From Hyphomicrobiales bacterium (GTDB lineage: Bacteria > Pseudomonadota > Alphaproteobacteria > Rhizobiales > HXMU1428-3): a stretch of DNA of 64,000 nt. Of this stretch, positions 29,260 through 56,940 are shown in pieces (position 1 is the first letter of the stretch; each line of letters starts with the position of its first letter). Made by a program: the position numbers and the translations under genes. The notes beneath the pieces were generated by a model. The model was given only the letters and a program-made list of their open reading frames with translations. It made no database searches and was not told the DNA's origin. The stretch covers positions 31,837 through 95,836 of the forward strand of contig JAJFHX010000017.1 of the NCBI GenBank assembly GCA_021775425.1, given 5' to 3'.

Positions 29260-30225
29260 ATGACAGAACAACTCAACAAAAGCCTGATATGGGACATCAT
29301 GCATGTAACCGAACGCGCCGCGATTGAAGCCGCCAAACTGAGAGGCCGCGGTGATGAAATGGCAGCAGATAAAGCCGCCGTGGATGCAATGCGCAGTGAG
29401 CTGAACAAACTCGATATCGATGGCCGCGTCGTCATTGGTGAAGGGGAACGGGACGAAGCACCAATGCTGTTCATCGGCGAAGAGATCGGCACCAAAAACG
29501 GCCCAAAAGTCGACATCGCCGTTGACCCGCTTGAAGGCACAACGTTGTGCGCAAAATCGCTCCCTAATGCTCTTGCAGTGCTGACCCTAGCGCAAGGCGG
29601 CAGTCTCCTTCATGCCCCTGATATCTATATGGAAAAAATCGCCATCGGCCCGGGTTACGAGGCTGATCTTGTCTCTCTGGATAAAACACCAGCTGAAAAT
29701 CTGCAAAGCCTGGCTGAGGCAAAGGGCACAACTGTCAATGATCTCACAGTCTGTATTCTTGACCGTGCCCGCCATAGCAAACTGATAGAAGAAGTGAGAA
29801 GCGCTGGCGCGGCTGTGAATCTGATTGGTGACGGTGATATCGCCGGTGTCATCCAGACAACAGACCCGGATGAAACCGGAATTGATATGTATATGGGCGT
29901 TGGCGGCGCTCCTGAAGGTGTGCTGGCAGCTTCAGCCCTTCGCTCAATCGGCGGGCAGATGCAGGGCCGGTTAACGCCCTTGCATGAAAGCCATTATGAG
30001 CGCGCTGCAAAGGTCGGCATCACAGACCTTTCTAAAATCTACAGCATTGACGACATGGTCAAAGGTGACGTGATCTTCGCGGCAACTGGTGTCACATCAG
30101 GCACCTTGCTTGATGGTGTCCGCCTTGATGCAGATGTGATCGAAACGGAAACCCTCATCATGCATGTGGGCAGCGGCACAGTGCGCTGGGTGAAAAACCA
30201 GAATCAGGTTAGAACTAACAGCTAA
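29260..30225 (+). CDS. glpX: class II fructose-1,6-bisphosphatase (GlpX)
   Basis: ERAAIEAAKLRGRGDEMAADKAAVDAMR; GRVVIGEGERDEAPMLFIGE; VDPLEGTTLCAK. Confidence 0.96.
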   Translation: MTEQLNKSLIWDIMHVTERAAIEAAKLRGRGDEMAADKAAVDAMRSELNKLDIDGRVVIGEGERDEAPMLFIGEEIGTKNGPKVDIAVDPLEGTTLCAKSLPNALAVLTLAQGGSLLHAPDIYMEKIAIGPGYEADLVSLDKTPAENLQSLAEAKGTTVNDLTVCILDRARHSKLIEEVRSAGAAVNLIGDGDIAGVIQTTDPDETGIDMYMGVGGAPEGVLAASALRSIGGQMQGRLTPLHESHYERAAKVGITDLSKIYSIDDMVKGDVIFAATGVTSGTLLDGVRLDADVIETETLIMHVGSGTVRWVKNQNQVRTNS

Positions 30226-30270
30226 CAAACCAGTAACCAGATCGTAAAAGCCTGAGATACGAAGAAGGGA

Positions 30271-30335
30271 GCCAGACTTATTTATAAGTCTGGCGCACAT
30301 GGTGGCAAGGCCACCCGGCACTTAGCGCCGCACCT
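30271..30335. repeat. composite palindromic repeat, copy 1 (hairpins A+B plus gcgccgcacct tail)
   Basis: CCAGACTTA-TTTA-TAAGTCTGG, then GGTGGC-AAG-GCCACC, then cggcactta-gcgccgcacct; first 48 bp exact match to 30387-30434. Confidence 0.9.
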
Positions 30336-30343
30336 CGTAGAGC

Positions 30344-30361
30344 CTGACGCGCTAGCGTCAG
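30344..30361. repeat. perfect palindrome between the repeat copies
   Basis: CTGACGC-GCTA-GCGTCAG. Confidence 0.8.
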
Positions 30362-30386
30362 AATAGCTCGTGAGAGAAAAAACAAA

Positions 30387-30487
30387 GCCAGACTTATTTA
30401 TAAGTCTGGCGCACATGGTGGCAAGGCCACCCGGTCAAGCGCGGTTGTTAGTGGGCAAACTGAAGCGCCAGCAATGCGCCGCACCTT
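30387..30487. repeat. composite palindromic repeat, copy 2, with additional hairpin C before the gcgccgcacct tail
   Basis: 48 bp identical to copy 1, then hairpin C (30439-30468) GCGC-GGTTGTTAGTGGGCAAAC-TGAA-GCGC, then gcgccgcacctt. Confidence 0.85.
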
Positions 30488-30542
30488 GCGAGGATTTAAC
30501 ACAGATTGGTTTAATATGGGGAATGCCCAATCAAAATCTGAG

Positions 30543-56863: not shown

Positions 56864-56895
56864 GCGCCGGTTGCTTGTGGGCAACCTGAAGGCGC
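56864..56895. repeat. hairpin C-family palindromic repeat
   Basis: GCGCC-GGTTGC-ttgtgg-GCAACC-tgaa-GGCGC, homologous to 30439-30468. Confidence 0.75.
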
Positions 56896-56940
56896 ACTAA
56901 AAGAGTATGCAAAAAAGAAAAATGTTGAGATAATAACGGG

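Follow-up and report, generated by a model that had tools for sequence, protein, structure and literature searches.

The intergenic region between glpX and recJ holds two head-to-tail units, one complete and one damaged, of a repeat of about 120 nt with four hairpins. The family to which they belong is dispersed in multiple copies, swaps its modules, shows insertion polymorphism beside stop codons, covaries between its core and its 3' end and displays strand polarity within the genus. The reading that we favour, and that we hold to be probable by a modest measure, is that these are non-autonomous, mosaic, intergenic mobile elements of a REP/BOX-like kind, which act through single-stranded DNA.

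Within the window, by which we mean the whole 64-kb stretch of DNA that was analysed, the elements lie between glpX (29260-30225, TIGR00330) and recJ (identified by TIGR00644). The first-pass annotation had described a two-copy repeat at this position, with a shared exact block of 48 bp containing two perfect hairpins and with a tail common to both copies, and this description is correct except for the length of the block. The exact direct repeat measures 49 bp (30270-30318, identical to 30386-30434), is the sole repeated 30-mer on the + strand of the window and includes hairpin 1 (GCCAGACTTAT/ATAAGTCTGGC, 11 bp) and hairpin 2 (GGTGGC/GCCACC); the tail GCGCCGCACCT is found at 30325-30335 and again at 30476-30486.

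Copy 1 (30259-30379, + strand) is the complete four-hairpin element and matches covariance model R1 with 116.3 bits (model positions 1-128 of 128). Its parts, all on the + strand, follow each other in the order: 5' linker, P1 (30271-30294, a perfect 11-bp stem with a loop of 2 nt), the conserved linker GCACAT (30295-30300), P2 directly after this linker (30301-30315), P3 (30316-30330, CGGCAC-TTA-GCGCCG, with a single A.C mismatch), the core loop (30332-30338), P4 (30340-30369, GAGC-CTGACGC-GCTA-GCGTCAG-AATA-GCTC, with the conserved 4-nt 3' bulge AATA) and the conserved 3' end GTGAGAGAAA (30370-30379). The palindrome CTGACGC-GCTA-GCGTCAG, earlier taken for a separate feature between the copies, is indeed there (30344-30361) but forms the inner stem of this fourth hairpin. 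In the core loop, X (A30332) pairs with Y (T30338), and the triplet N1N2N3 (CTC, 30334-30336) pairs and covaries with GAG (30374-30376) of the 3' end, both pairings being recovered as covariation throughout the family. Folded as a single strand, copy 1 reached z = -5.4 (+) and -5.65 (-), with no shuffle equally good, and the two strands are equivalent in energy (-31.2 and -31.0 kcal/mol). No terminator-like T-run is present in copy 1; on the minus strand, at 30377-30410, P1 of copy 2 and, after it, the A-rich terminal part of copy 1 make up a terminator-like hairpin plus TTTGTTTTTT.

Copy 2 (30380-30498, + strand) is damaged and scores 26.4 bits with R1: P1 (30387-30410), P2 (30417-30431) and the tail of P3 (30476-30486) are recovered on the + strand, a cassette replaces the 5' arm of P3, and P4 and the 3' end are missing. 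This cassette (about 30437-30472, + strand, GTRG type, ~38 nt; nhmmer cassette profile, E 2.4e-7) is the extra 'hairpin C' that had been noticed in copy 2; its presence stands, but it is a unit of an independent and abundant family, of which a solitary ~38-nt GTGG member lies on the same strand of the window at 56868-56901 (+, E 1.6e-4). From the end of copy 2 to the likely start of recJ at 30515 there are about 17-30 nt; the mechanically longest recJ ORF begins within copy 2, at 30474, and comparison with relatives points to ATG 30515 (MGNAQSKSEMAETAF...) as the real start.

The annotation had named confinement of the block to this site as the outcome that would refute it; this outcome did not occur, and the block, used as a query against the genome, brought up many diverged copies. 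In the aligned genome copies the unit starts as ACGAAGAAGGGA-P1-GCACAT-P2-P3 (CGGCGC..GCGCCG) and continues after P3 as C X C N1N2C G Y A-P4-GTGA-G N2'N1'-AAA, the stem sequences being almost wholly different between copies and the linkers constant. Counted among the matches listed, this genome contains 39 R1 matches at E<=1, of which 30 have an E-value below 1e-4; the genus-mate G005 contains 48 (E<=1e-3) and the genus-mate G004 at least 149. Matches occur in 26 of 101 relatives. With the core model R2 the same core was recovered in 28 of 386 class genomes (27 of these 28 listed as 'same class'), often several times per genome and in tandem, and other families, both in the order and in the class, have weaker homologues with this core, GTGA and the core being invariant across the class. 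The exact core pattern was found in the named genome collection only in Methyloligella sp. DHS20C07 and in two uncultured Hyphomicrobiales MAGs. Head-to-tail arrays of near-identical units with a period of ~88-115 nt were seen in other families (L062 1030-1616, L074 1169-1620 and L165 735-986), the array in L062 being located upstream of a gene that we take, by eye, to be ffh. Carriage as plasmid or phage cargo was considered and rejected: PLSDB gave no match at E 1e-3 to the query, one 63-nt core, which makes a weak test for diverged hairpins, and among viral contigs a core pattern is matched by two only, and the genus core and the cassette by none. The CIR repeats of Caulobacter are tied to CcrM sites; a CcrM-linked repeat of this type was likewise rejected, GANTC being found in only 5 of 212 element copies. 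A literature search for the conserved strings returned unrelated papers only, and we regard the repeats as a REP/BOX-like family, part of which may have been described earlier, the RIME/ABC sequences lying outside the comparison.

The core was analysed in an alignment of 25 diverse cores (A4). The X-Y pair is formed in all 25, by four different Watson-Crick pairs and never by G.U, N2-N2' is paired in all 25 by three pair types, and P3 covaries as well; the covariation score of the whole structure is 0.343, versus 0.095 after shuffling (0/500) and at most 0.067 with slid partners. In a larger set of 125 distinct elements, 114 have complementary X and Y, where shuffles reached at most 64, and in 100 the triplet N1N2N3 exactly complements its 3' partner, where shuffles reached at most 61; six triplets are represented. 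Under strand-symmetric scoring the stems contain more than 2500 Watson-Crick pairs against 29 G.T and 29 A.C; like the covariation counts, these numbers include related sequences and do not represent independent events. Because X-Y encloses N1N2N3 and the partner of the triplet lies beyond P4, the layout is pseudoknot-like; the element is therefore no simple double-stranded palindrome, and recognition as one folded strand is implied. Since an RNA with a function of its own should accept G.U pairs on its strand, the lack of a G.U excess points to DNA. As far as can be read from the alignments, the data thus favour an element that is read as one folded strand, of DNA over RNA. No Rfam covariance model matched the element, and a known structured RNA was rejected on this ground together with the missing G.U excess. 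Adjoining the element of L065 (1406-1545, -) there are sub-threshold Rfam matches to the Brucella sRNAs CI27 and CI408, which probably stem from a different Rhizobiales palindrome (of the GCATGATC...GATCATGC type) that replaces P1. The foot of P4 carries the tag GYAG, in which Y can be T, G, C or A and varies with X. A recurrent P4 variant, CYGAGC-NNA-GCGARG (L044, L063, L072, L091, L097 and L099), resembles tandem G.A pairs with a triloop cap; a similar hairpin is present in CGTC-REPs.

The cassettes follow the consensus GCGC-GGTTGC-TNGTRG-GCAACC-TGAA-GCGC-CACTAAAA and yielded 33 BLAST matches in this genome, with over 100 first-look candidates for several genus-mates; the genus loci examined contain 262 distinct units, and at loci outside the genus the nhmmer profile found none. 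GT[AG]G occupies the foot of the GCAAC stem in 233 of the 238 cassettes that could be parsed (91 could not). They occur in tandem with a period of 36-38 nt, inside the loops of the large elements (the X-Y loop in G003 and G004, P4 in G003 and G006), nested in the loops of other cassettes (G007), directly after stop codons and alone, and mostly on the strand of the element. Relatives have 0, 1, 2 or several of them at the recJ site.

Comparison of orthologous loci shows gain or loss of whole elements and exchange of their parts. In G007 (L086) element and cassette sequence separates a stop codon from the following gene, and G004 (L242) has ~18 nt at this place; in G003 (L082) there are cassettes and an element that starts at the TAG stop, and the orthologous L197 of G004 has none there; and L185 of G004 carries an element that the orthologous L081 of G003 does not. 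In another orthologous comparison, L197/L082, P2, P3 and the 3' end are nearly identical, with a P4 that is wholly different and contains a cassette in G003, so that a swap of a whole hairpin is seen in one orthologous pair with near-identical flanks. The recJ site has an element on the same strand in six of seven genus genomes (G005 is the one without), and across these P1-P4 have been replaced and the linkers kept. The empty-site comparisons showed no terminal inverted repeats and no clear TSD at the insertion boundaries. In L063 the conserved element end GTGAGCGAAA apparently supplies the GTG start of the downstream ORF (GTGAGCGAAACAAATC = MSETNQ...), presumably encoding an engB-type GTPase, as read by eye.

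The orientation of the copies follows the contig. In the two well-assembled genus-mates, 94-97% of the copies lie on one strand per contig, with a minority strand of 5/149 in G004 (among the matches listed) and 3/48 in G005, as well as 3/39 in this genome. Pair concordance is 0.935 in G004 (among the matches listed) and 0.826 in G005, against 0.50 for random strands; in this genome, with its many short contigs, it is 0.736 and falls inside the random range (maximum 0.793), and the claim of polarity therefore rests on G004 and G005. In each of the five contigs whose mean |GC skew| is ~0.1 or more, the element + strand coincides with the C-rich strand, three weak-skew contigs being ambiguous (the skew of the window is only -0.042), and on contig C3 of G004 the element runs opposite to rpoB-fusA-tuf. 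Judged from skew and from the direction of rpoB-fusA-tuf, the element + strand in G004 and G005 is opposite to leading-strand synthesis; the strand with GYAG 5' of P4 is accordingly assigned to the leading-strand template and its complement to the lagging-strand template. Outside the genus, with few matches per contig, polarity is not obvious. Copy density seems to be highest on contigs of weak GC skew (G005:C2 and G004:C6 versus G005:C1), possibly those close to the terminus. Convergent sites are enriched (>E< 41 versus <E> 7), the element being near the 3' end of the facing gene. Gene orientation was rejected as the cause of the polarity: coding strands, as sampled, show no polarity in common with the element, and the sites are mostly convergent, so transcription does not explain it. 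Hairpin-driven deletion was rejected too, both strands folding equally well. In six loci (L009, L066, L074, L169, L170 and L175) a distance of 3-6 nt separates the 3' end of the element from that of a tRNA gene, which the element faces in every case, and at most of these the tRNA is tRNA-Leu, tRNA-Ser or tRNA-Arg.

A polarity of this strength, independent of gene orientation, could also mark a selected chromosome signal, comparable to KOPS or to a fork or primosome assembly site, that a motor or primosome protein reads in one direction and whose hairpins are maintained by selection and not by mobility. The retention on the 5' side of recJ in six of the seven genomes of the genus, where every stem has been replaced and the linkers kept, and the class-wide invariance of GTGA and core would suit such a signal; we nevertheless judge it improbable, since copy number varies widely among genus-mates (39, 48 and at least 149), close species differ in presence at orthologous loci, the tandem arrays and nested cassettes look parasitic and a minority of the class (28/386) carries the element. 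Nor do we put much trust in action at the RNA level, by which a structure transcribed in the 3'-UTR and serving as terminator, RNase barrier or processing site would have been moved passively. Such a structure would account for the convergent sites near the 3' end of the facing gene and for the six elements that face the 3' end of a tRNA, all in one relative orientation, and transcribed 3'-UTR REPs are known in Bradyrhizobium (PMC5082802). Against it, the stems hold as many A.C as G.T (29 each), X-Y is free of G.U in the 25 aligned sequences, the strand follows the contig yet the mostly convergent sites have no single direction of transcription, Rfam gives no match and copy 1 is without a terminator-like T-run.

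The annotation had further proposed a modular REP/BIME-style element with a RAYT partner. What holds of this is an intergenic, multi-copy element that gains and loses cassettes; the alternating inverted REPs of a BIME are not found, the copies being head-to-tail and strand-polarised, and neither is the RAYT. PF01797 (RAYT/Y1) has no match in this genome (94% complete) or in six of seven genus-mates, including G002 (99%) and G005 (98%), and the two matches in G004 adjoin no element, cassette or REPtron. The IS91-type Y2 transposase (PF04986) has no match in this genome either; both enzymes were thus rejected as partners here, and the enzyme is therefore hypothetical. We consider it very doubtful that the repeats form an ordinary GTAG-REP/BIME system with a RAYT that has been lost or falls in an assembly gap. 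The GT[AG]G at the foot of nearly all parsed cassette stems and the GYAG at the foot of P4 speak for such a system, as does the bulged stem, which is typical of the REPs of RAYT subclass 2.2 (PMC6006769); the near-complete genomes without PF01797, the lack of a REPtron next to the G004 matches, the direct and polarised copies in place of inverted dimers, and a Y of GYAG that varies with X speak against it.

Single-strand mobility, the reading we favour, would proceed as follows. The unit is a chain of hairpins with invariant linkers that ends in a conserved core (P3, loop, P4 and GTGAG end); it would be recognised as folded single-stranded DNA exposed at replication forks. A hypothetical HUH-type or other ssDNA nuclease may cut at the P4/3'-end core, similar in layout to the guide-hairpin-end geometry of the IS200/IS605 right end, and new copies would be inserted beside the 3' ends of transcription units. 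Hairpins and ~38-nt cassettes may be exchanged, duplicated in tandem and inserted into loops via the short identical linkers, and any benefit for the host would be secondary.

The elements share properties with several known systems. With the REP/BIME repeats of the GTAG family that are served by TnpA_REP (RAYT) they have in common the intergenic location, high copy number, bulged palindromes and composite arrays (PMC6006769, PMC2817692), and the GT[AG]G at the foot of the parsed cassette hairpins and the GYAG at P4 may be a further likeness; they differ in the 120-nt four-hairpin unit, in a tag base that covaries with an upstream base, in the head-to-tail, replication-polarised arrangement with tandem copies almost all on the same strand, and in a genome without RAYT. 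The pneumococcal BOX element (boxA-boxB(n)-boxC) likewise has fixed ends and an inner cassette in variable tandem number (PMC3049150), a likeness of design only, whereas the cassettes described here are also found in hairpin loops, in each other and alone, and are strand-polarised. The right end of IS200/IS605 has, 5' of its hairpin, a guide that pairs with the terminal tetranucleotide (PMC6006769). The present elements resemble these ends and their MITE derivatives in that the triplet 5' of the last hairpin is predicted to pair, and covaries, with the 3'-terminal triplet (N1N2N3 with GN2'N1'), which would make it a guide-to-end pairing with cleavage only predicted, and also in the ssDNA-type fold and the replication-linked orientation. 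They are unlike them in that this genome has no Y1 transposase, the element sits beside stop codons with no fixed tetranucleotide target shown, and the strand with the guide geometry is on the leading-strand template; for a simple IS200/IS605 analogue, with its active strand on the lagging-strand template, only the reverse complement, with the invariant TCAC at the hairpin foot, would fit. CGTC-REPs are alphaproteobacterial and without associated transposase, as are the present elements, but the CGTC tag, size of 20-40 bp, CCA tail and head-to-head dimers of their description (PMC3733652) were not seen in our element alignments. Br-REP1/Br-REP2, Caulobacter CIR and the Rhizobium RIME/ABC mosaics are also multi-palindrome intergenic repeats of alphaproteobacteria, and the printed Br-REP consensus differs from the element (PMC5082802).

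More tentatively, the repeats could represent an undescribed class-wide family that combines pseudoknotted ssDNA, a self-templated end code, a fork-set orientation and an enzyme outside RAYT/IS200 and IS91; the loop triplet would then specify the covarying 3' triplet as an end-recognition code, and the enzyme would move or maintain the element. How REP-like repeats spread and why genomes retain them is a long-standing question. The family described here, with no identifiable RAYT, a guide/end code kept class-wide, modular hairpins and ~95% of its copies replication-locked in one genus, makes two ideas testable: that forks expose the strand through which such repeats work, and that the repeats are served by an unknown ssDNA enzyme. 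The covariance model, moreover, annotates many hitherto unlabelled intergenic stretches in the alphaproteobacteria.
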